From Ignavibacteriaceae bacterium (GTDB lineage Bacteria > Bacteroidota > Ignavibacteria > Ignavibacteriales > Ignavibacteriaceae): a stretch of DNA of 64,000 nucleotides. Under the pieces are notes generated by a model. That model was not told the DNA's origin and made no database searches. It worked only from the letters and a program-made list of their open reading frames with translations. This document shows positions 33,066-47,356 of this stretch, piece after piece. The stretch covers positions 62,001 through 126,000 of the forward strand of contig JABWCL010000005.1 in NCBI GenBank assembly GCA_013360295.1, given 5' to 3'. The translations under genes were made by a program, and so were the position numbers. Numbering within the stretch: the first letter of the stretch is position 1; each line of letters starts with the position of its first letter.

Positions 33066-34004
33066 ATGTATTATAGAGAATCTGAGCGGGAAAAAGCCCT
33101 AAGAATCAGAGATGAATTCTTCAAAGACCCCGGTTATGGTGAACATCTAAAATATAAGTATCCTTATGTTTTAGAGCAAGCGGAGAAAAACCTATGGACA
33201 AAAATCCGAGAGGAAGCTATTAAATATTTTGCTGATAATAAAATAGTCTGGTGGCCTGGTGCAACGGAACCATCAGGACATCTTCTATCTTCGCAGGTTT
33301 CATGTGTCAATCATTTGTTTTTTTTAAGAAATGACAAAGCTGCTGCTCTTAAGATTTTGCAAAATTTAAATCCTGATTTCACGGAGGTTTGCCCTGACTT
33401 TGAAAATGGTTATATCGGTTTTGAAGTAGTGAGTAAACACAGTTATCTTAGAGAAGTTGTAGATGAGCAAGTTCAAACAAGAGGGGCTAACTGCACTTCA
33501 GTTGATGCAATGATGACCGGGAAATTAAAGGACGGCAAGAAAATTAAAGTTCTTATTGAATGGAAATACACTGAACATTATTCTAAATCTAATAAGTCGG
33601 AAGGATCAAGAGGGACAACCAGGAAAAGCAGATATGACGCGCTAATTGATGACAAGAATTCTCCAATAAATAGAACCGTAAGCATCGACAACTTATATTA
33701 CGAGCCATTTTATCAAATTATGCGACAAACCTTATTGGCTTGGCAAATGACCAAAAACAAAGAAAATGAATTAAATGCCGATGATTGGTTGCATTATGAT
33801 GTGATTCCAGAGAACAACTTAAATCTTCGATATCAGGTTCCGGCACCTGATTTGCTACAAACTGGGATTGAAGAGGCATGGAAATCTCAACTCAAAGAAC
33901 CACAAAAATATAACGTAATCACTCCTCAAAAACTGCTGAAACCTATTATTGTTGACCTTAAATATCGTAGATTAATTAACTACCTGAATTATAGGTATTG
34001 GTAA
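33066..34004 (+). CDS. Putative PD-(D/E)XK restriction endonuclease (PGN_0703-like)
   Basis: 312 residues. A nuclease core is readable as Asp 147 (SVDAMM), then a beta-strand ending LIEWKYTEH with Glu 165 and Lys 167, the D...ExK arrangement of the PD-(D/E)XK fold. The segment SSQVSCVNHLFFLRND upstream is typical, as I recall it, of the 'PGN_0703 family putative restriction endonuclease'. It lies alone between two 141-bp repeats and may pair with the DNA methyltransferase of the next operon or be an orphan. Codon use is more AT-rich than host genes, in keeping with transfer. Confidence 0.72.
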   Translation: MYYRESEREKALRIRDEFFKDPGYGEHLKYKYPYVLEQAEKNLWTKIREEAIKYFADNKIVWWPGATEPSGHLLSSQVSCVNHLFFLRNDKAAALKILQNLNPDFTEVCPDFENGYIGFEVVSKHSYLREVVDEQVQTRGANCTSVDAMMTGKLKDGKKIKVLIEWKYTEHYSKSNKSEGSRGTTRKSRYDALIDDKNSPINRTVSIDNLYYEPFYQIMRQTLLAWQMTKNKENELNADDWLHYDVIPENNLNLRYQVPAPDLLQTGIEEAWKSQLKEPQKYNVITPQKLLKPIIVDLKYRRLINYLNYRYW

Positions 34005-34628
34005 TTTGCTTACTATGGGAAAAAAGTACAGGCTATTTTACCTGTAACGGTGTTGAGAGGTCGGGGCTTATTGAAAGTGGGCGGGTGATAAATTATCGTG
34101 CTTGCCGTGCAGAGTACTGTTGTTCCGCGTTAGGCACTAGTAAAATAACCTTCGTTGCATGAGAATAACTTTTCACGAAAACAGGTTAAGATCTTTGTTA
34201 AAAAGCTCTTGCTTCTTCATTTGGCTGTTATTATCTTTCTATGAGAAAATGCGTTTATTATGCAGAAAATACAATTTTTAAAGTAACTCTTACGCAAATT
34301 TGTGTAAAAAAAGTTAGGTGCAAGTGTAGCCGAAAACACAATAACCATCAAGAGACAGACAATTTAAAGAAAAGGTAAACCAATTTGACAAGTGACCAAA
34401 AGATAGACTATTTCCTGAGCGAACAACTAGCAAACCGTCACGCCTTGCCGACTCCAATGTATTTTTTATTTTTTCGCACCACACTTTTTAATTCAATTTT
34501 ATCCCGCCACACAACCGGCACATTTGGTTTTGCGCTGCCCGCAAGCCAACTCCTTAGTAAAACTAAAAAGCCATTTTGGCTATAATACCAGCAAAAATGA
34601 ATAAATTTAACAACAAGAAATTGATGAT
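34005..34628. other. Spacer with second 141-bp repeat and no supported gene
   Basis: About 620 bp. The repeat copy occupies the first quarter. Downstream is an imperfect hairpin (TTACGCAAA/TTTGTGTAA near 34289-34306), followed by GTTAGGT. The 66-codon reading frame inside has no ribosome site and a composition unlike a protein, so I do not call it. The promoter of the HerA operon is presumably here, but no clear box was found. Confidence 0.4.
34028..34168 (+). repeat. 141-bp repeat, copy 2 (right of the nuclease gene)
   Basis: Same orientation as copy 1, with twelve substitutions and no insertion. Weaker similarity runs on to about 34255. In this copy the right inverted-repeat arm is AGTAAAATAACC, one more mismatch. 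The two copies enclose the PD-(D/E)XK gene as a 1.2-kb cassette-like unit. Confidence 0.85.
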
Positions 34629-36734
34629 ATGAGCATAGAACAAGGACTTAACTCAAGACGAGAAGACGACAAGCAGGTTGAAAGCCAGCAATGGTTTCAA
34701 AAGCTGATTCAAGCAGACCAGTATGTTGGTGACATCTACTCTATCAACTATGAGACGGCAAGGGTAATCATTCACGAATTTTACAGAGAAAAAGTCGGTG
34801 GAATACCAAGTTTAAGTTTTCTGATTGCGACAAGAGTTGACCCGAGCAAGACAGACATTGACTTTAAAAAGGAAGATGCTTCATTTGTTCTTTTGCGTGT
34901 AATGGATGCAGCGGCATTGCCACAAGACAAAGAAGCTGAAAGGATAAGGGTTGAAACAGCTCAAAGGATAAGCGGAGAAACTGAAAAACATTGGGATGAC
35001 GCAGGTTCGATGGACTTGCGAACAAAAAACATTCTTGGTTTTGCAGGGGTTCAATGCCGAATCATTGGAACATTCTTTCTCGAAGAAAATGGAAACAATG
35101 GTGAAGCTCCACTAAACCTTAAATTTGGTAGCGACATTTCTAATTACTACCCAAACAGGGGATTGAAAGTATATAAGCCTAATGGAAAAGCACTTGAACA
35201 AATCGTAAATTACGCTGACCCGTCAAGCATTCAGGCTCACATTGAAAAATATGGAAATACTGAAAGAGTTAAACTTGGGTTTGTTCGCTATGCTTCAACA
35301 AATCGTAAGTATCAGCAAATTGATGATGTCCCTGTTTACATTTACCCTGCGGACTTGCTATCTCAAAAATCTGCATTGTTCGGTATGACCAGAACAGGTA
35401 AATCAAACACTACGAAAATTATCGCCAAATCAGTATTTGAATTACGAACAAATGAAAATCCAAATGATAGACCACTACGAATAGGTCAAATTATTTTTGA
35501 CCCTAATGGTGAGTATGCAAACGAAAATGTTCAAGACAATAATTCCGCACTAAAGAATGTTTGGCAACTACTTCCAAATGGCGTAAAAGCCAATGAAGTT
35601 GTAACCTATGGAATAACACGTCATCCAAACGACCCTGACAGAACCTTAATGCTTCTAAACTTCTTTGAAACAAGTAACACACAGATTGGAAAAAGTATAA
35701 TTGATAGCATCTTATCAGAAGATAGCACTAATTACATCAAACAATTTTGCCAAGTAAGCTTTGATGAACCTGACCCAAATGACCGAAGTGCAACTACACG
35801 TTATAACAGACGATTATTAGCCTATCGTTCAGTATTAGCCAGAGCAGGTTTTCAAGTTCCTCCAAATTTAAGGGCAAGCACAAGGGGTTTATTTAATCAA
35901 GACTTGATTACTGCCCTTCAAACAGGAAGAAATAATAATCCACCAACTCCTGAGTATGTTTCAGCAGCTCAAGTATTCTCAAATCTAAATCCTGCTTGGG
36001 GGCAACTTGCTAATGCTTTTGAAGCATTAGATAAATTCATTCGAGATAGCAGTAGCAATTACACCACATTTGAAAATGCCTATGTAAGTCGTCCGAATGG
36101 TTCAGGCGACAGATGGGCTGATGAAGATTTGAAAAAAATCATTGGCATTTTTCAATATCCCAACGGAACAAGAAAGATCGGTAAAGCGGCAGAACAACAT
36201 AGTGCCGACACAACAAGTGATTACGCTGAAGATATTTACAACCACCTTGTTCAAGGTAAATTGGTAATAATTGACCAGTCAAGTGGTGAACCCGAACTCA
36301 ACAAATCTTCTGCGACCAGAATAATGACAAAGATTTTCAAAGAAAATCAAAGAAAATTTGTTCAAGGCGAAACTAACATTCCTGAGATTTTAGTCTATGT
36401 TGAAGAAGCCCATAATATTTTACCCGCAGGTAATGATTTAGATTTATCTGACATTTGGGTAAGAACTGCCAAAGAAGGTTCTAAGTATCGAATTGGAATG
36501 GTATACGCTACACAAGAAGTGAGCAGTATTCAAAAGAACATCTTAAAAAACACTGCTAATTGGTTTATCAGTCACTTGAACAATACAGATGAGACAAAAG
36601 AACTTTGCAAGTATTACGACTTTGCAGACTTTGAACCATCAATAAGGCGAGCACAAGACAAGGGATTTTTAAGAGTAAAAACATTAAGTAACCTATTTGT
36701 CATTCCTGTTCAGGTTGACAAGTTTGAAGTTTAA
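34629..36734 (+). CDS. HerA-like hexameric ATPase/translocase
   Basis: 701 residues. An N-terminal beta-barrel-like region (about 20-200, with [20 protein letters not shown]) precedes a FtsK/HerA ATPase. Walker A is [10 protein letters not shown] at about 252-261, a first acidic strand is [10 protein letters not shown], and Walker B is [10 protein letters not shown] with Glu near 592. A TQ sensor (YATQEVSSI) and a final Arg-rich stretch follow. HerA proteins pump DNA and partner with NurA nucleases in archaeal end resection and in several bacterial defence systems. The NurA-like gene follows after 12 bp. Confidence 0.9.
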
Positions 36735-36746
36735 AGCACTATCATT

Positions 36747-38132
36747 ATGAGTTTTGAAGGAGAATTTGCCAGTTACGAGCCTTTAAGACGGTTACTTGAT
36801 AGTGAAAAAGTTAAAGCACTTCAAAACCGACTTAAAATAAGGCAACAAGAAGAAGAAACAGAAGACTTTGAAGGTTCAATAGTCAAAAAATCTGATTTGA
36901 CTGAAAGCACATTGCAACCTGATTTAGTTCTTGCAATTGATGGAAGCAATTTAGCTGCTAAAGCAGAAAACGGATTTCCCGGTGCTGAATTTGGCTACAT
37001 TACAATAGCTTCTGTTTTAATTGACTTAAAGTTAATTGGAGAGTTAGAAAAAAAGGAATTTGTAGAACCAAAGAAATTTCGGGAAACTGAGAAGGCATCA
37101 ACTATTGAAAGTGTTTTTCCCGGCTGTAATGTAATTCTTGATAGAGAAAAGAATGCCAAATCTTCTTTAAGGAGAGCTTTGTTTGAAGAGTTACGAAACA
37201 ACACCATTTTCACAGATGGGGAAACTTTGCTTGACACTTACGAGCATCTTTTTACAATAAAACGGGAGCATTTTAAAGAAAAGAATTTACCAAGAAGTCC
37301 AATTGAAGGAGTTGAAGAAGAAATGACATATGACTTTGGGGAATATACTTGTCCTCATTCAGGTGAGCCGCTTTTCTCAACTGATGCTTTACGTTTACAC
37401 GAACTTATGAACCCAGGCGGGAGTAATGGTGAAATGTTTGGACAAATAATGTCCACTCTTGAAAAACTTTGGCTTGTTCATATTCTTAGAGCATTTGAAC
37501 GCAAAGGTTGGCTGGCAACACTTCGGAGAGTTGCTTTTATAATGGATGGCCCTTTAGCTGTGTTCAGCACTTCATCTTGGTTGACGAAAGTTATTAGCCA
37601 CGAATTAACCCGCCTAAATGACCTTCAAAGGAAAGTAAACGGGCAAGACCTTCTTATAATTGGAATTGAAAAATCAGGAACATTTTTTGATCACTTTATT
37701 GAAATTGATACTACCAAAGACGGAGTAACAGACAAGTTTCCAAAGCAATCAGCCCTGCTTTTGAATGATGGTTACATAAAAAGAAATATCATATTTTCTG
37801 AAAGTTCTAAACCATACGGACAAGACACCTATTTTGGCAGAAAACTGTTCTATAAAGCAGCATCAGGTCAAAAGATTGTTGCCGTTATAGCTATACTTAG
37901 AAGTTTTGCCTCTAATCAAGAATACAAAGATTATTTAGAATCAAGTGATCCATCAAACTTTACGAGATTAGCAGATGTTATGAACATACTCGACCAGCTT
38001 GTGTCAAGCAGATATCCTAATTCAGTTTCACCATTAGTTTCAGCACACGCAGAAGCAGCTATCCCATTGAACTTAGGCAAACGAATATTTGAAGATATAG
38101 CAAGAGAAATCAGAGAGAAATCAAAAGAATGA
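36747..38132 (+). CDS. NurA-domain nuclease
   Basis: 461 residues. The NurA fold is suggested by LVLAIDGSNLAAK (Asp 65), then FIMDGPLAVF (Asp 267) and the strand LLIIGIEKSGTF, the spaced acidic positions of this RNase H-like family. Family members are Mn-dependent 5'-to-3' nucleases driven by HerA. The protein is longer than archaeal NurA (about 330-350) because of a N-terminal extension and an insertion around 130-220. It overlaps the methyltransferase gene by four bases, so the two are translated together. Confidence 0.82.
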   Translation: MSFEGEFASYEPLRRLLDSEKVKALQNRLKIRQQEEETEDFEGSIVKKSDLTESTLQPDLVLAIDGSNLAAKAENGFPGAEFGYITIASVLIDLKLIGELEKKEFVEPKKFRETEKASTIESVFPGCNVILDREKNAKSSLRRALFEELRNNTIFTDGETLLDTYEHLFTIKREHFKEKNLPRSPIEGVEEEMTYDFGEYTCPHSGEPLFSTDALRLHELMNPGGSNGEMFGQIMSTLEKLWLVHILRAFERKGWLATLRRVAFIMDGPLAVFSTSSWLTKVISHELTRLNDLQRKVNGQDLLIIGIEKSGTFFDHFIEIDTTKDGVTDKFPKQSALLLNDGYIKRNIIFSESSKPYGQDTYFGRKLFYKAASGQKIVAVIAILRSFASNQEYKDYLESSDPSNFTRLADVMNILDQLVSSRYPNSVSPLVSAHAEAAIPLNLGKRIFEDIAREIREKSKE

Positions 38133-39256
38133 TAGCAAAGGAAAAAACATTAAAAGGTTTTGAAACAGCCGAAGCACGTTGGGCAAGGTTTGGGCCATAC
38201 TATGCTATGTTTCCTTTGGAATTTGCATTTGATGTAGTTGAGAAGTATTCAAAGAAGGGTGATTATATCATTGACCCTTTTGCAGGCAGATGCAGTAGCA
38301 TATATGCAGGTGGTGTTTTAGGAAGAAACAGTTTGGGTATTGAAATTAATCCTGTAGGTTGGCTATATGGTACTGTAAAACTTCAACCAGCGGTGAAAGA
38401 AGAAGTTGTTGACCGACTTCTTGAAATTTATGGTAAGAGAAACTATTACAATAGAGCCATACAGCGAATGCCCGAATTTTATCGTTTTTGCTATTGTGAT
38501 GAAGTTCTGAAATTCCTTTTGGCTGCCAGAACTCATTTAGATTGGAAAAACAATAATGTTGATGCGACTTTAATGTCAATCCTTCTAATTTATCTACACG
38601 CAAAACTTGGCGAAGGACTTTCCAATCAGATGAGAATGACTAAATCAATGGGAATGAATTACTCGGTGCAATGGTGGAAGAAAAATAAAATGTCCACACC
38701 ACCTGAAATAAATCCTTGCGATTTTATTCTCAAAAAAATTGAGTGGCGTTATGAGAAAGGAAAGCCTAAAGTTACTGAGAGTGTCGTAGTGTTTGGCGAC
38801 AGTTCAAATGAATTAGTGAACATTGCAGAACGAGCAGTAAAAAACGATATAAAATTTTCATTGCTGTTTACTTCACCACCCTATTACTCAATTACTGACT
38901 ATCACGCTGACCAATGGTTGCGACTTTGGCTTTTAGGTGGTTCTGAAAATCCACAATCACTAAAGGACAAACACAAAGGACGATTTGTAAACAAGCAAGA
39001 TTATTATGACCTGCTTGACAATGTTTTTGGTCTTTGTGCCAAAATGATGAAACGGAAAAGCACTATTTACGTTCGGACAGACAAGAGAGAATTTACATTC
39101 AACGCGACACTTGAAATCCTGAAAAAGCATTTTCCAAATCATTCAGTAAAAATTGTAGAAAAACCTTTAACAAAAGATACTAGGACACAAACAAAACTTT
39201 ACGGAGATAAGACAATGAAACCCGGAGAAGTTGATATAATAATGACAAGAAAATAA
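38129..39256 (+). CDS. DNA methyltransferase (SAM-dependent)
   Basis: 375 residues. The SAM-binding motif I appears as IDPFAGRCSSIYAG (Asp 49) and the catalytic motif IV as LLFTSPPYYSITDYH (Ser 249-Tyr 252). Motif I precedes IV with about 200 residues between, where a target-recognition region could fit. The SPPYY form is seen in N4-cytosine and N6-adenine enzymes. It could mark self DNA so that HerA-NurA attacks only unmodified DNA; this is inference. It is five bp from the dGTPase-like gene. Confidence 0.85.
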   Translation: MIAKEKTLKGFETAEARWARFGPYYAMFPLEFAFDVVEKYSKKGDYIIDPFAGRCSSIYAGGVLGRNSLGIEINPVGWLYGTVKLQPAVKEEVVDRLLEIYGKRNYYNRAIQRMPEFYRFCYCDEVLKFLLAARTHLDWKNNNVDATLMSILLIYLHAKLGEGLSNQMRMTKSMGMNYSVQWWKKNKMSTPPEINPCDFILKKIEWRYEKGKPKVTESVVVFGDSSNELVNIAERAVKNDIKFSLLFTSPPYYSITDYHADQWLRLWLLGGSENPQSLKDKHKGRFVNKQDYYDLLDNVFGLCAKMMKRKSTIYVRTDKREFTFNATLEILKKHFPNHSVKIVEKPLTKDTRTQTKLYGDKTMKPGEVDIIMTRK

Positions 39257-39261
39257 TAAAT

Positions 39262-40641
39262 ATGAATTGGAAGAATTTACTAAATGAAAATAGGCTAAGA
39301 CCTTCATCAAGAGATAAGTCTGATGATTTTAGAAATGAATTTGAAAGTGATAATGGCAGGATAATTTTTAGTCCAGCAGTAAGAAGGATGCACGATAAAA
39401 CTCAGGTATTTCCTTTAACAAATGACGACAATATCCATTCGAGATTAACTCATTCACTTGAAGTTATGTCGGTTGGGGAATCAATTGCACTAAATATTTT
39501 AAATAATCAGAAATTTAAAAATATCAGTGGCCTAGATCAATCGCATTATTTAAGACAAATACCCGTAATAGTAAAAAACGCATGTTTAGTTCACGATATA
39601 GGGAACCCTCCTTTTGGACATTTTGGCGAAGCAGTAATTCAAGGATACTTCAAGAACTTATTTATGCACGACCGTGAAAATGAAGAAAAAAATTTAAATC
39701 CAAAATTTGAGATAAGTAATTTAGAGAGACAAGATTTTGAATATTTTGACGGGAATGCTCAAGGATTAAGAGTTTTAACAAAACTGCAAGTTTTGGATGA
39801 CTCATTCGGTTTAAATCTAACTTATGCAACTTTGGGAGCATATATAAAGTATCCGAACTTTGATGAATTAATATCAGACAAGAGTAGTGTTGAATATTTA
39901 ACCAGAAAGAAAAGGGGGATTTTTCAATCCGAAAAGGAATATTTTAAAACCATAGCTTCAAACTTAGGCATAGAGTCAAATCAAAAATATCTGCGTCACC
40001 CATTGGCTTATATAGTGGAAGCCGCAGATTCAATATGTTACTTAATTATGGATATTGAAGATGGATATAATAAAGGTTGGTATAATTATGATTATATTAA
40101 AGATGTGTTATCTAAAAATAAACCATTGAAAGATCTATTTGAAAAAATTGATAAAGCGTCTAAAAGTGAAATATCCAACATTGTAAATCTAAGGCATGGT
40201 TTGATTAAGTATTTTGTTGTGTTATCTGTAAATAACTTTATTAATAACTATGATAGTATAATGAATGGAGCTTATTTAAAAGAATTAATTAAGGACGACG
40301 AAAATGAAGTTGCTAAAGAGCTAAGCAATTATTGTACTTCAAAAATATTTTCAAATAGGGAAATTACATCACTAGAGTTAACCGGACATTCCGTAATAAA
40401 AGGATTACTGGATTATTTTATTGATTTTACCTTTTCAACTAATTGTGCCTATAGAAAAAGAGCTGTTGGATTGATTTCGAAAAGCATTAAAAAGGCAGCA
40501 ATATTAGAAACAGGAAAAGATTCATTCGAAGAGTTATCTTCTTATTATAAGCTTAGAGTAATTGTTGATTTTATTTCGGGGATGACTGACCAATTTGCTT
40601 TAAATCAATTCCGGAAAATCAGTGGCCAAAAAATTATCTGA
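39262..40641 (+). CDS. dGTPase-like HD-domain triphosphohydrolase
   Basis: 459 residues of the Dgt family, which removes tripolyphosphate from dGTP and related dNTPs. Family signature at the N-terminus: RRMHDKTQVFPL; HD metal ligands in RLTHSLEV (His 64), LVHDIGNPPFGHFGE (His 111, Asp 112) and a later Asp in EAADSICYLIMDIEDG. Length equals the usual 450-510. dGTPases are known to protect bacteria from phages by depleting dNTPs, so a defence role in this operon is reasonable. Its codons are more AT-rich than the HerA-NurA-MTase genes. Its end overlaps the next gene by 20 bp. Confidence 0.9.
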   Translation: MNWKNLLNENRLRPSSRDKSDDFRNEFESDNGRIIFSPAVRRMHDKTQVFPLTNDDNIHSRLTHSLEVMSVGESIALNILNNQKFKNISGLDQSHYLRQIPVIVKNACLVHDIGNPPFGHFGEAVIQGYFKNLFMHDRENEEKNLNPKFEISNLERQDFEYFDGNAQGLRVLTKLQVLDDSFGLNLTYATLGAYIKYPNFDELISDKSSVEYLTRKKRGIFQSEKEYFKTIASNLGIESNQKYLRHPLAYIVEAADSICYLIMDIEDGYNKGWYNYDYIKDVLSKNKPLKDLFEKIDKASKSEISNIVNLRHGLIKYFVVLSVNNFINNYDSIMNGAYLKELIKDDENEVAKELSNYCTSKIFSNREITSLELTGHSVIKGLLDYFIDFTFSTNCAYRKRAVGLISKSIKKAAILETGKDSFEELSSYYKLRVIVDFISGMTDQFALNQFRKISGQKII

Positions 40642-41323
40642 TATCGAACTATTAGTAAATGAATCTAACCACTCTTTTGTAGACTACTTGCAAAGCAACT
40701 TTGACAAAAGAGTGATTGATTTGTTGAACGAATTATCTGAGGAAACCGATATTTACATATTTAGTGGAGTAATCAGAAATTACTTCCTTAAAATTAACGA
40801 GAATAGAGATTTAGACTTGGTTCTCGAAAAAGAAATAGAGTTGCAAGAACATCTTTCTAATTATAAAAAATCAGTTAACAGTTTTGGTGGGTATAAAATT
40901 GAACATGAAAAACTAAACATTGATTTGTGGTTTATGAATGATACTTGGTCAGTAAAAAATCATCAACTAACACTAAATTATGAACTTGACAAGTATATCC
41001 CACAGACAGCATTTTTCAATTTCTCTGCAGTAATGTTTTCTTATAAGAGAAAGGAATTTATATGCACTAAATATTTTCTTAGGTTTCTGCGGGATAAAAA
41101 ACTCGAATTGGTTTACGCACCGAATCCTAATAATGCTCTTTGCATCGTAAACACATTTTATTATAGTGAGAAATATAAAATGAAGATTGGAGACAAACTG
41201 AAAGTTCATATTAAAAAAATATCTGTTACTAATCTAGAGCAAACAATTGATGTTCAAATAAAGCATTTTGGTAGAGTCATTTATTCTATTGATGACCTAA
41301 AAAGCCGAATAGACAAATTATAA
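40622..41323 (+). CDS. Nucleotidyltransferase-fold protein (CCA-enzyme-like head)
   Basis: 233 residues, GTG start. The Pol-beta nucleotidyltransferase motif reads SGVIRNYFL...NRDLDLVLE (Asp 63, Asp 65), with the third acid in LNIDLWF (Asp 101), like the GGxVRDxLL-DxD arrangement of CCA-adding enzymes; the first Gly is Ser here. There is no HD or tRNA-binding domain. The last hundred residues are basic and helical. It is co-translated with the dGTPase-like gene by a 20-bp overlap, so the two are functionally linked. Substrate unknown: it might add nucleotides to RNA or a protein, or make a signal. Confidence 0.72.
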   Translation: MAKKLSDIELLVNESNHSFVDYLQSNFDKRVIDLLNELSEETDIYIFSGVIRNYFLKINENRDLDLVLEKEIELQEHLSNYKKSVNSFGGYKIEHEKLNIDLWFMNDTWSVKNHQLTLNYELDKYIPQTAFFNFSAVMFSYKRKEFICTKYFLRFLRDKKLELVYAPNPNNALCIVNTFYYSEKYKMKIGDKLKVHIKKISVTNLEQTIDVQIKHFGRVIYSIDDLKSRIDKL

Positions 41324-41605
41324 AACTCATGGAAAGCAGTCACACAGAATGCCAAGTTGCGAAAGTATACCTATAAGACTAAATATGGCGAATTGAAGTT
41401 GTACCTGCCGACTGAACACAGGAACCTAAAGAAAGAAAATTGAGAGACGAATAAAAAATGGCTGTTAACAATGGATATGCGTCAGGTGGGGTGACTTGTC
41501 CTGATGCATCGGGATGCTCCGAAACCCGCTAGAACGCCACGCTCAGAACCATTATGCCTTATTGAGGATAAAATACAACGATCCCTGATACCTAATTTCA
41601 CGGTA
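41324..41605. other. Spacer between the HerA operon and the type III island
   Basis: About 280 bp without a supported gene. A 35-codon open stretch directly after the NTase stop (ending LYLPTEHRNLKKEN, stop at 41441) might be a decayed gene end. The rest is featureless, with a mixed base composition unlike the AT-rich operon to the left. Confidence 0.3.
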
Positions 41606-42632: not shown

Positions 42633-44516
42633 ATGAGCAAAATTGAAATTAAAAAAACCGAACTCGTTTGGCGTGGAAAGTATGATGACGAAGGGAAATT
42701 AGTACCCGTTGAAAAACCCGGTCCCTTTCCCTTTCAGATAGTGGAAAGTATTAACGAACCTCGGGTTGAAAAAGGTGATGAAGTTCCAAAGCAAACCACT
42801 CTGTTTGATACATGGAAAGGAGATGAGGGAAGCACCTTTGAAGACGGTTGGAAAAATAAACTTATCTGGGGCGACAACAAGTTTGTGATGAGCTCCCTGT
42901 ATGAAAAATTTGCCGGCAAAATTGACCTTATTTACATTGACCCGCCATTTGCGACCGGTGCGGATTTTAAGTTTGAGCTTTTAGTAGGTGATAAAGGGGA
43001 GACAATAAATAAAGAACACTCAATTTTAGAAGAAAAAGCTTATAGAGATACTTGGGGTGAAGGAATAGATTCATTTATACAAATGTTATATGAACGACTT
43101 TCGCTAATGAAGAATCTTCTTTCAGATACTGGTTCAATTTATATTCATCTAGACTGGCGTGTTCACAATTACGTAAGAATAATTCTTGAAGAATTATTTG
43201 GTATTGATTGTTTTCAAAGAGAAATTATTTGGTATTTTGATAATGTCTCTGGTTATAAGAGCATTGCAAATAATTGGATCAGGGACCACGAGACAATATT
43301 ATGGTTCACAAAATCAAATAATTATACATTCAATAAGGTGTTTGGTGATTACCCACAAGGTTATGAAAATAAATTTTCCAATATTGATGACAATGGGAGA
43401 AGATTTATGAAACGTGCTGGAAGAAAACAATACCTCGATGAATTAAAAGGTAAACCACTAGGTGATGTTTGGCGAATTCCCTTTATTAATAATATGTCTT
43501 TAGAGCGGGTTGCATATAGTACACAAAAACCTGAAACACTTTTAGAAAGAATTATTAAAGCAAGCAGTGATGAGGATGACTTAATCGCCGATTTCTTTTG
43601 CGGAAGTGGCACAACCTGTGCGGTAGCCGAAAAACTAAACCGCAGATGGATAGGTGTGGATTTGGGACGCTATGCCATCCACACCACCCGCAAGCGCCTT
43701 CTTGAAATTGAAAACAGTAAAAGTTTAACTGAGGAGGGGAAGAAATACGGTAAGAAAGCAAAGCCGTTTGAGATACTCAACCTCGGCAGATATGAACGGC
43801 AATTCTGGCAGATAAAAGCGTTTGGCAAAAAAGACGAGAAACAGGCATTGTTTGAATACCTCGCTTTCATTCTAAAACTTTACGGCGCAGAGCCGCTGCC
43901 GGGTTCTTCAAGCATACACGGAAAGAAGGGAAATGCATTGGTGTATATTGGTGCAGTGGATGCGCCGGTAACCATTCAGGAAGTAACCGATGCTCTGAAC
44001 GATACCAAACAGATGGGGCAAAAGGAACTGCACATACTCGGATGGGAGTGGGAGATGGGGCTGAACGATGCCATACAGGAAGTGGCAAAGCAAATGGCTG
44101 TCCGGCTTAAACTACGCATCATTCCTATGGATGCCATTGACCCGCAGGCATCCGGTAAAGGAGATGTGAAATTCTTTGAACTGGCTTATTTCAAAACCAA
44201 TATTGAGACAAACGGGCTGAAAGTTAAAGTAAAATTGGAAGATTTTGTAATTCCGCATACTGATCTTATTCCGCCCGATGTAAGAGAAAGCATTAAAAAA
44301 TGGAGCGACTGGATTGATTACTGGGCTGTGGATTTTGAATTTCAGAATGATACCTTTAATAATGGTTGGACAAGTTACCGCACCAAACAGGAACGTAAAC
44401 TACGCCTTATTGCCGACTATGCATATTCCAAAGCCGGTACTTACAAAATTTTTGTGAAGATAATTGATATTTTCGGAATTGATACATCGCAGGTTTATGA
44501 AATCAAGGTGAAATAG
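42633..44516 (+). CDS. mod: Type III restriction-modification methyltransferase (Mod)
   Basis: 627 residues. The beta-class order is seen: catalytic DPPF in LIYIDPPFATG (Asp 103) comes before the SAM-binding ADFFCGSGTT (Asp 320). The target-recognition region between them (about residues 125-315) is markedly more AT-rich than both flanks, as if exchanged by recombination. Mod modifies N6 of adenine in an asymmetric site and gives the complex its sequence specificity. The res gene follows two bases after the stop. Confidence 0.93.
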   Translation: MSKIEIKKTELVWRGKYDDEGKLVPVEKPGPFPFQIVESINEPRVEKGDEVPKQTTLFDTWKGDEGSTFEDGWKNKLIWGDNKFVMSSLYEKFAGKIDLIYIDPPFATGADFKFELLVGDKGETINKEHSILEEKAYRDTWGEGIDSFIQMLYERLSLMKNLLSDTGSIYIHLDWRVHNYVRIILEELFGIDCFQREIIWYFDNVSGYKSIANNWIRDHETILWFTKSNNYTFNKVFGDYPQGYENKFSNIDDNGRRFMKRAGRKQYLDELKGKPLGDVWRIPFINNMSLERVAYSTQKPETLLERIIKASSDEDDLIADFFCGSGTTCAVAEKLNRRWIGVDLGRYAIHTTRKRLLEIENSKSLTEEGKKYGKKAKPFEILNLGRYERQFWQIKAFGKKDEKQALFEYLAFILKLYGAEPLPGSSSIHGKKGNALVYIGAVDAPVTIQEVTDALNDTKQMGQKELHILGWEWEMGLNDAIQEVAKQMAVRLKLRIIPMDAIDPQASGKGDVKFFELAYFKTNIETNGLKVKVKLEDFVIPHTDLIPPDVRESIKKWSDWIDYWAVDFEFQNDTFNNGWTSYRTKQERKLRLIADYAYSKAGTYKIFVKIIDIFGIDTSQVYEIKVK

Positions 44517-44518
44517 TT

Positions 44519-47251
44519 ATGCCAAATTCGATAGTTCATTACGACAAAACACTTCCATACATTGAAGACCGCAACCCGTGGGAGGTGCCAACCTGCTTTT
44601 TGAAGAAGAAAGCTGCAAATGAATATGAAGTGGTGCAGGGGCGAAGACCCAGCAAAATGCTTCTGGTTAATAAACTCCGTTCTGAAGTAGATAAATGGCG
44701 TAACGATGGTTATACCGGAGCTACAGCAACTTCACAGGAATTGCTGGCATTTTGGTTTGACCAGTCGCACCCGCCTGTTTTTGGCAATGAGCCATTCCAT
44801 TTCTATTTCTGTCAGCGTGAAGCAGTGGAAACAATCATCTATCTTTTTGAAATAAAAAAATTCACAGATGTAATTCCGCTTATCCAAAAGTACCATGAAA
44901 AATTTAGCGGTAACCTGTTTGCTTCAACCATCGAATTCAGTGAAGATTTAGAAGGCAAGCGAAAAGTAAAAAGATACTTCCCCGAAAAAGACCAGGAAGG
45001 TGAGCAGGAGTTGCCGGAAAAAGATTTGTTGCGGTATGCTGTTAAAATGGCAACCGGCTCTGGAAAAACCTTTGTGATGGCTTTTGTGGTGGTTTGGAGT
45101 TATTTCAATCGCTTAAGGGAAAAAGACAGGCGATATGCCAACAATTTTTTACTGGTAGCTCCTAATGTGATTGTTTATGAGAGACTCGCAAAAGACTTTG
45201 CCAATGGTAAGGTTTTTATGGAATTTCCTTTCATTCCCGATGCATGGAAATCGCAATGGAAACTTAATATTAAAGTACGTGGAGATGAAAGCCCGCTTGC
45301 TGCTGAAAACAATTTTATACTGAACAATATTCACCAGCTTTACGAAAGCCGTACTAAAGAATTTAACCCAAATACAATCATAGAAGCCATTCTTGGCCGT
45401 AAACCACAAAGTGATCCGGGTAAATCACCCCAAACCTTACTGGAAAGAATAAAAGAACTGGACAATTTGCTTGTGATGAACGATGAAGCACATCACGTGC
45501 ATGACGATGAATTAAAATGGAATGAAAGCTTGCTTGCCATTCACAAAAACTTACCTGGCGGTTTAAAGATGTGGATTGATTTTTCAGCAACCCCTAAAAC
45601 ACCCGAAAACACTTATTACCCCTGGATTATTTGTGATTATCCATTAGCACAGGCAGTGGAAGACCGAATTGTAAAAGTTCCTTTAATAGTTCACTCAGTA
45701 AATAAGAAAGACCCGGAAAAAATCACAAAAGACAATGTGGTTCAGAAATATGGAGATTGGATTTCAGCTTCCCTTGCCCGTTGGAAAGAACACAACGAGG
45801 CTTATAAAGGTGTGAAAAAGAAACCCGTGCTTTTTATTATGGCTGAAAAAAATGCCTTTGCTGATAAAATAGCTGAGGCAATTACAAAACGTGGTCAAGT
45901 CTATGGTATAACCAATGATGAAGTAATGATCATTCACACAGATACAAAAACCGGTGAAGTTCGCAAAAGCGATCTTGAAAGTTTAAGAGAGGAGGCCAGG
46001 GATGTAGATAATCCAAAAAACAAAATCAAAGTAATTGTTAGTGTCCTTATGCTTCGTGAAGGTTGGGATGTTCAGAATGTAACTATTGTTTTGGGTTTAC
46101 GTGCATTTGATTCTGCTATACTCCCGGAACAGGCAATTGGTAGAGGTTTACGTTTGATGAGAGATATCAGTCCCGACCGCACCCAAACGCTGGAGGTAAT
46201 TGGAAATGAAAACTTTGAGAAGATTGTTAAACAATTAGAGATCGAAGGTGTGGGCATTAACACAACCAAAACACCGCCACCACTTCCGGTTACCATTGCT
46301 CCTGAGAAAAAGAGATTACCTTATGACATCGAGATTCCGGCTACTGACTTTTCATATACCAGGGCATATAAGAATCTTTCTGGAATTGACGGCAAGAAAT
46401 TTCCATCGCTGTTTTCATCTTCAAAACTGAGCGAGGACAGGAAAACGCTTTTGAGAATGGAAGTGATGAATCTGGGCGTTGAAGTTCATCAGACTGCTAT
46501 TGAATCTGAATTTCTCGAATTAGGCAGGGACCTGACATCGTACATTGTTTCTCAGGTTATGAAGAAAGCCGGCTTAACGGATTGTTTCCAATTTGTTTAC
46601 CCGATTTGTGAAGACTATATTTTGAATAAATGTTTTGAAGTTAAAATTGATGATATTGAGAAAGAAGAATTAAGAAAGGTTTTACGAGAACTCTCTATTC
46701 AGGAGGCTATCATTGAACTTTTGGCAAAAGAAATAGGAAAAGCCACAGTTGAGAAAAAGCAGGTAAAAATCAAAGGAAAAAGCTTAAAACTATCAGATAC
46801 GCCAAAATTTACCTGGAGGCGGGGTCACATACGTCTGAAGAAAACCGTGTTTAATTTCGTTGCCACCTACAACCCGTTTGAAGCTGAGTTTGCTGAATTT
46901 CTTGATAATGCAGTCGACATAGAAGCTTTTGCCGCATTAGCAGACATTTTCAGAATAGATTATCTTTCAAATACCGGAGCTATTCGTTATTATTTTCCTG
47001 ATTTTGTGGCGGTACAATTGGCTGGGAACAAAAAGGTATTCTGGATTTTAGAAACCAAAGGACGTGAATACCCCGATCTTGACAACAAGAACAAAGCTAT
47101 CGGGCGCTGGTGCAAAGCAGTATCAGAGCAGACAGGTTTGGAGTGGAATTATTTGTTAGTTAAGCAAGCAATATTCAATGTGAATAAAAAGTCAACGAAA
47201 ACTTTAAAGCAGTTAGAAGATAAAATTAATAGTCAGACAAAAATTGAATAA
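44519..47251 (+). CDS. res: Type III restriction enzyme Res subunit
   Basis: 910 residues. The superfamily 2 helicase has Walker A in ATGSGKTFV (178-184), the DEAH box in NDEAHHVHDDE (Asp 322), a SAT motif in DFSATPKTPE and motif VI in EQAIGRGLRLM. A C-terminal PD-(D/E)XK nuclease is seen as FPDFVAVQ (Asp 828) and WILETKGRE (Glu 845, Lys 847). It cuts when two unmodified inversely oriented sites meet. The gene appears intact, so with Mod it should form an active system. Confidence 0.94.
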   Translation: MPNSIVHYDKTLPYIEDRNPWEVPTCFLKKKAANEYEVVQGRRPSKMLLVNKLRSEVDKWRNDGYTGATATSQELLAFWFDQSHPPVFGNEPFHFYFCQREAVETIIYLFEIKKFTDVIPLIQKYHEKFSGNLFASTIEFSEDLEGKRKVKRYFPEKDQEGEQELPEKDLLRYAVKMATGSGKTFVMAFVVVWSYFNRLREKDRRYANNFLLVAPNVIVYERLAKDFANGKVFMEFPFIPDAWKSQWKLNIKVRGDESPLAAENNFILNNIHQLYESRTKEFNPNTIIEAILGRKPQSDPGKSPQTLLERIKELDNLLVMNDEAHHVHDDELKWNESLLAIHKNLPGGLKMWIDFSATPKTPENTYYPWIICDYPLAQAVEDRIVKVPLIVHSVNKKDPEKITKDNVVQKYGDWISASLARWKEHNEAYKGVKKKPVLFIMAEKNAFADKIAEAITKRGQVYGITNDEVMIIHTDTKTGEVRKSDLESLREEARDVDNPKNKIKVIVSVLMLREGWDVQNVTIVLGLRAFDSAILPEQAIGRGLRLMRDISPDRTQTLEVIGNENFEKIVKQLEIEGVGINTTKTPPPLPVTIAPEKKRLPYDIEIPATDFSYTRAYKNLSGIDGKKFPSLFSSSKLSEDRKTLLRMEVMNLGVEVHQTAIESEFLELGRDLTSYIVSQVMKKAGLTDCFQFVYPICEDYILNKCFEVKIDDIEKEELRKVLRELSIQEAIIELLAKEIGKATVEKKQVKIKGKSLKLSDTPKFTWRRGHIRLKKTVFNFVATYNPFEAEFAEFLDNAVDIEAFAALADIFRIDYLSNTGAIRYYFPDFVAVQLAGNKKVFWILETKGREYPDLDNKNKAIGRWCKAVSEQTGLEWNYLLVKQAIFNVNKKSTKTLKQLEDKINSQTKIE

Positions 47252-47356
47252 GCCAACGCATTTGTAAGTTATTGCCAAAGCCACACATTCCAACGCTCCG
47301 ACCGAAGCTTTGTCAGGGAGCTTTTGTAGCTAGCATAAGAGGTCAATTTCAAAGTT

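Follow-up and report, generated by a model that had tools for sequence, protein, structure and literature searches.

Two putative anti-phage modules, a HerA-NurA-methyltransferase trio and a Clover-like pair, in one operon of an Ignavibacteriaceae bacterium

The 64,000 nucleotides of Ignavibacteriaceae bacterium DNA analysed here (assembly GCA_013360295.1, contig JABWCL010000005.1, positions 62,001 to 126,000; called the window) carry an operon of five genes at 34629-41323, which code for HerA, NurA, a DNA methyltransferase, a dGTPase and a nucleotidyltransferase. We conclude that the operon probably consists of two anti-phage modules placed end to end, i.e. a methylation-marked restriction trio of the Tdp type followed by a Clover-type pair with a differing signal. 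An earlier note on this DNA, made from the sequence alone, had taken the five genes as a single candidate defence system, to be refuted if they did not co-occur in other genomes or if the set matched a named system. No co-occurrence of the five was found elsewhere, and the five-gene claim fails: no pair accompanied the trio at any further locus examined, and the pair recurred without the trio. Conserved order in distant genomes, which the note had named as a supporting result, was seen for HerA-NurA-methyltransferase and not for the five-gene set. Each of the two units recurs in many genomes, and chance is excluded for both. We give about even chances to a more far-reaching version, in which the trio would be an undescribed, nearly pan-prokaryotic methyl-mark restriction system countered by phage capture of the methyltransferase, and the pair a Clover subtype using a nucleotide other than p3diT.

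The genes of the operon are as follows.

34629-36734, + strand: HerA/TdpA-like DNA-translocating ATPase, 701 aa (DUF87 3.6e-12; Walker B VYVEEAHN; best PDB match TdpA 8wet)
36747-38132, + strand: NurA/TdpB-like RNase H-fold nuclease, 461 aa (NurA PF09376 1.6e-31; structural match TdpB 8wfd_G)
38129-39256, + strand: amino (N6/N4) DNA methyltransferase, 375 aa (N6_N4_Mtase PF01555 4.7e-14)
39262-40641, + strand: CloA-like dGTPase, an HD phosphohydrolase, 459 aa (PADLOC 5.5e-69; NCBIfam PRK01096 1.9e-120)
40622-41323, + strand: CloB-like nucleotidyltransferase, 233 aa, GTG start (invariant D63, D65, D101)

Positions, direction and spacing of these open reading frames (ORFs) agreed exactly with the earlier description of five genes in one direction with gaps of at most 12 bp or overlaps; 12 bp separate genes 1 and 2, genes 2 and 3 overlap by 4 bp, 5 bp lie between genes 3 and 4, and genes 4 and 5 overlap by 20 bp. 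The family labels were borne out as well, by Pfam, PADLOC and NCBIfam for HerA, NurA, N6_N4_Mtase and dGTPase, and by a profile and an invariant motif for the nucleotidyltransferase. The G+C content is 36-38% in genes 1-3 and 29-30% in genes 4-5, compared to 43% in the whole window. This drop between genes 3 and 4 was a first hint of two origins.

The HerA-NurA-methyltransferase trio

A search for HerA in 395 genomes of the phylum yielded close relatives, in which NurA and the methyltransferase follow HerA and the pair does not. From a scan of GTDB with one genome per species the best 80 HerA loci were taken. In 72 of them the sequence was long enough for all three genes, and all three were present in 72/72. 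The canonical compact order and spacing, mostly with the 4-bp overlap of NurA and methyltransferase, was kept in 69 of these. The others showed a gap of 862 bp between HerA and NurA (L111), a methyltransferase in first position (L131) and a split HerA (L157). By record titles the trio loci belong to more than 20 phyla including archaea; among the hosts are Bacteroidota, Chloroflexi, Cyanobacteria, Planctomycetota, Spirochaetes, Nitrospirae, Omnitrophota, Gemmatimonadota, Actinomycetota, archaea and others. The trio is also located on plasmids of Halorarius and Deferribacter. No DNA match to the trio was obtained in E. coli genomes.

Variant arrangements were also observed. On the Deferribacter megaplasmid pDF308 (L011:6141-9939) an inserted IS200/IS605 element (TnpA-TnpB) interrupts HerA of the trio. 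In G108 (L014:8547-9947) residues 1-107 of NurA are fused in frame to the methyltransferase, the remaining NurA is gone and the upstream HerA is intact. Two genomes of one genus (L060:7019-14488 and L062:6630-14099) carry a different HerA-NurA arrangement in the order 327-aa gene, HerA, NurA, SMC/AAA ATPase of 742-743 aa and 297-aa gene.

The nearest solved relatives of HerA and NurA are the two subunits of TdpAB. HerA matched TdpA (8wet) best in the PDB with 3.9e-14 as a single sequence and 2e-25 as a profile, the next match being 5e-13; the part of HerA that aligns is the C-terminal ATPase part. For NurA, an AlphaFold2 model with a predicted local distance difference test score (pLDDT) of 84 superimposed on TdpB (8wfd_G) with a Z score of 19.5 and a root-mean-square deviation of 3.7 over 298 residues. 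The next structural family reached 12.9, and archaeal and Deinococcus NurA about 11-13. D65, E286 and H316 of NurA were invariant in 73 sequences, and position 267 was D or E. In the methyltransferase the motifs DPFxGR and then TSPPY were both invariant in 73 sequences; from our knowledge of the family we take TSPPY to suggest an amino methyltransferase (m4C or m6A). TdpAB degrades DNA without phosphorothioates, which are placed by TdpC. The trio thus resembles TdpABC in joining a motor, a nuclease and a self-marking enzyme, and differs in its third gene, which in the window and its relatives is a PF01555 DNA methyltransferase and not the phosphorothioation enzyme TdpC. With HerA related to TdpA, NurA related to TdpB and a methyltransferase as the third gene, the simplest reading is the logic of TdpAB with methyl marks. 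The methyltransferase would mark self DNA, a HerA hexamer would thread unmarked duplex DNA into the NurA nuclease, and the methyl marks would stop HerA-NurA from acting on self DNA. In this way the trio would correspond to TdpAB with a DNA methyltransferase replacing the phosphorothioation enzyme.

HerA and NurA might also repair DNA double-strand breaks, as their archaeal counterparts do. The protein families are the same, and archaeal HerA-NurA is reported to perform end resection (PMC12977600). We consider a repair function highly improbable for the window, because the distribution is patchy and mobile, with a NurA match of any kind in 6/164 genomes of the order, because the methyltransferase is an obligate partner and because HerA stays far below the NCBIfam cut-off for repair-HerA (41 vs 970 bits). 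Furthermore, the window operon is not linked to mre11-rad50; its neighbours are restriction genes.

Among named defence systems DUF4297-HerA and SIR2-HerA resemble the trio in that a HerA motor works together with an effector enzyme. Yet, their effector is DUF4297 or SIR2 instead of NurA, they have no methyltransferase and their HerA is only distantly related. PADLOC 2023 contains a HerA model and returned no model for the window NurA. The open-access papers searched did not contain a named HerA-NurA-methyltransferase defence system; an earlier mention in the subscription literature, e.g. in the 2011 defence-island survey (PMC3194920), is possible. The three-gene core is a candidate restriction system for which the sources consulted offer no name. 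On novelty, which had been suggested for all five genes, the suggestion holds in this sense for the trio and not for the pair, which closely matches the named Clover system with a differing pocket.

The methyltransferase of the trio was also found in a phage. In a scan of viral contigs the 28.7-kb contig L086 (IMGVR_UViG_3300045922_000579) was seen to encode it at 92% identity (L086:7940-9128) in phage-like gene surroundings, including a tail tape-measure gene. HerA or NurA was not found in the 17 kb of L086 examined. Homology to the window starts 62 bp upstream of the methyltransferase, and these bases encode the last NurA residues in frame. Thus the phage methyltransferase came from a trio-type operon, of which only the self-marking gene was kept. 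This suggests a candidate case of stolen self-protection, which would make sense if methylated DNA is safe from HerA-NurA. When viral contigs were scanned more widely, there was no second close case and one distant relative (32%) in another viral contig.

The dGTPase-nucleotidyltransferase pair

The fifth ORF had no significant match in Pfam, NCBIfam or PADLOC. Its family profile weakly matched poly(A)/CCA polymerases (E 0.0018), and the DxD...D residues D63, D65 and D101 were invariant in seven homologues. On account of this match and this motif the label nucleotidyltransferase stands. The gene was first re-found on Phaeobacter plasmids directly after a dGTPase. With a two-row profile (A1) six further genomes were found to carry it, always adjacent to a dGTPase; the 20-bp overlap of the window recurs in most of them, and the G+C content is 22-33%. 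In total the dGTPase adjoins the nucleotidyltransferase in 8/8 places found. These counts are lower bounds, since DNA patterns for the nucleotidyltransferase gave nothing in genome and viral contigs and the search there succeeded only with profile A1. Phages gave no tblastn match to it. A match in G076 (5e-4) was dropped because it looks like an unrelated ORF. The pairs have defence genes as neighbours: one follows a type III restriction-modification system (L087), two follow type I restriction-modification genes (L089, with KwaB, and L091), and one is located near SIR2-HerA (L088).

In Clover dTTP switches on the dGTPase CloA, and p3diT, the product of CloB, inhibits it; the hosts listed are proteobacteria, Bacillus, Clostridia and Myxococcia (bioRxiv 2025.07.09.663793 / PMC12265719). 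The pair shares with Clover the adjacency of a dGTPase and a putative Pol-beta-type nucleotidyltransferase in defence islands. We compared the dGTPases using the CloA sequence of PDB 9p8t, whose numbering agrees with the publication wherever it was checked apart from position 377 (E instead of Q in the text). All six catalytic residues, H69, H117, D118, H126, E129 and D242, i.e. the HD motif and the HE dyad, were conserved. At the dTTP site R47, D61, Q172, S418 and T449 are conserved in the window dGTPase, S418 being present in five of six Bacteroidota-type members, while K256N, N420S, A444F and Y452F are changed. In a tree the window-type dGTPases formed a single clade (100/100), placed with CloA on one side of a split (100/100) that had eight unpaired dGTPases on the other. 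The single-gene anti-phage dGTPase (NF041026) is likewise a dGTP hydrolase; the window dGTPase reached 183.9 bits against a cut-off of 400 for that model and is paired with a nucleotidyltransferase.

The p3diT pocket sets the pair apart from Clover. In the window dGTPase and its five Bacteroidota-type relatives (6/6) the substitutions R34S, D37G, N75S/A/E and Q311V/I were present, whereas the Phaeobacter dGTPase (53% identical to CloA) retains R34, D37, N75 and Q311. D37, N75 and Q311 are the residues which read both thymine bases of p3diT. With four pocket residues changed in six of six members the inhibitory signal may differ. One may argue that the pair is an ordinary Clover with p3diT as the inhibitory signal despite these changes, because R29, R38, F41, N181 and R314 of the site are kept and p3diT is reported from a distantly related Xanthomonas CloB (bioRxiv 2025.07.09.663793 / PMC12265719). 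The consistent loss of contact residues, including the thymine readers, makes this alternative rather unlikely, though it keeps some weight. On residue comparison the pair closely resembles Clover, and we call it Clover-like; because of the altered pocket, full Clover membership is not claimed.

The functional tie that had been proposed between the two genes finds a parallel here, since control of the dGTPase through the nucleotidyltransferase is probable by analogy with Clover. A nucleotide made by the nucleotidyltransferase would hold the dGTPase off; phage infection would raise dTTP, release the dGTPase and drain dGTP. The inhibitory nucleotide of this branch would probably be other than p3diT.

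Two observations concern related genes. In G383 (L090:2297-2976) an in-frame stop interrupts the nucleotidyltransferase, next to an intact dGTPase. If the pair works like Clover, such a lesion should do harm; the stop may stem from an error of assembly, or the cell may tolerate it. The genome of the window itself contains a second dGTPase of the unpaired type (L019:374-3281, G000:C35), with a small ORF and a DNA methyltransferase (SSPPYN) as neighbours, perhaps another dGTPase plus restriction locus.

The junction between trio and pair

The window DNA is homologous to L053, L054, L101, L102 and L104 over 34504-39254 with 86-90% identity and to L103 with 82%, all from distant hosts. The homology begins 125 bp ahead of HerA and ends at the stop codon of the methyltransferase. 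L053 and L054 are genomes of another family with 89% DNA identity to the window trio. HerA proteins of L053, L054, L101 and L102, which belong to other families or phyla, are 98-99% identical to that of the window, indicating very recent transfer or, for short contigs of metagenome-assembled genomes (MAGs), misbinning. Two elements flank the coding part.

34504-34628, + strand: conserved 5' leader of the trio (start of the homology to L053/L054/L101-L104 DNA at 34504-34510)
41336-41430, + strand: degraded hairpin relative, displaced behind the pair (local alignment scores 42-53 vs L053/L101-L104)

Close relatives of the trio have a hairpin directly 3' of the methyltransferase, with A.A mismatches around a C-G pair and compensatory changes, i.e. 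both sides changed and the pair kept, at 6/19 pairs. A model of it (R1) was matched after the methyltransferase in 11 trios (e.g. L101:4952-5030, L053:9259-9337 and L112:12643-12721), and a related imperfect hairpin was seen just before HerA in eight (e.g. L102:171-248). In the window the dGTPase starts 5 bp after the methyltransferase, and only past the nucleotidyltransferase is there a degraded relative of the hairpin, with alignment scores reached by 0/1000 shuffles. In view of this displacement, the probable event is an insertion of the pair between the methyltransferase and the hairpin downstream of it. Insertion at this point would place both layers under common transcription, dGTP depletion likely being the second layer.

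The hairpins which bracket the trio may be sites at which a mobile cassette recombines. R1 had no match in the genome of the window, hence an array of cassettes is not claimed. The shape of the hairpins also led us to consider integron attC sites, a reading that was not established. In L054 a 438-aa ORF without a Pfam match (L054:7909-9225) overlaps the end of the methyltransferase and starts at the hairpin; no such overlap is seen in the sister locus L053.

The compact layout might speak for one integrated system of all five genes, in which, for example, damage or deoxynucleoside triphosphate release by HerA-NurA triggers the dGTPase. Spacings of no more than 12 bp and the 5-bp junction do suggest a single transcript. 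However, the pair was present in none of the 80 GTDB trio loci nor in the other trio loci, it was found with other partners, and the displaced hairpin indicates recent joining. Thus we regard a single system as improbable. Two dGTPase candidates near trios were rejected as members, a truncated ORF 590 bp downstream in L110 and a weak dGTPase-type match on the opposite strand in L127.

Weighing of the two-module reading and genomic neighbourhood

Several findings weigh against the reading as two anti-phage modules. The window dGTPase is 33% identical to CloA and no closer to it than to unpaired dGTPases (33-36%), two of which also fall on the CloA side of the tree. The link to CloB runs via the Phaeobacter pair and not by direct comparison with a CloB of proven activity. 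A single-sequence structure model of the nucleotidyltransferase reached a pLDDT of 33, did not confirm the fold and was discarded. The case for phage capture rests on L086 as the single good contig. The trio loci are mostly MAG contigs, some of them short, and single host assignments may be wrong; nevertheless, the breadth of the distribution is not in doubt. Finally, in ICEth1 of Thermus an operon that comprises NurA, TdtA of the HerA/FtsK superfamily and a pfam01555 methylase is needed for transjugation, i.e. DNA donation (PMC5365140).

By analogy with this mobile operon the trio could be a DNA-donation or mobility module instead of a defence system. A tyrosine recombinase near the trio, seen only in L053, and the 98% identical HerA in distant genomes, which shows mobility, would fit. 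On the other hand, NurA comes first in ICEth1, where the order is NurA-TdtA-methylase, and a type IIG restriction enzyme belongs to the set as well (PMC5365140); Thermus was compared here by description and not by sequence. HerA and NurA are closest to TdpAB, the phage keeps the methyltransferase alone as self-protection predicts, and the window operon is surrounded by restriction genes. A role in donation appears unlikely to us on these grounds, and we favor the view of a restriction trio joined to a Clover-like pair.

If this holds true, the trio, with its near-invariant order in more than 20 phyla and a testable motor-nuclease-methyl logic, would amount to a large family of restriction systems, and the orphan phage methyltransferase would be a natural case of counter-defence. 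The pair bears on the question whether Clover signals diversified, as its pocket is devoid of the residues which read both thymines of p3diT.

The location of the operon next to a type III restriction system and a PD-(D/E)XK nuclease was correctly described before, and so was the defence type of its genes.

33066-34004: REase-ARP, the PD-(D/E)XK neighbour, upstream (match 3.3e-47)
42633-47251: type III Mod/Res, downstream (Pfam/PADLOC)

Downstream of the operon an ATPase/Fic-C protein is followed by type III Mod and then Res. At 47260-47337, 9 bp past the stop of Res, the window has a weak match to the hairpin model R1 (17.5 bits, E 0.42), which may be due to chance.

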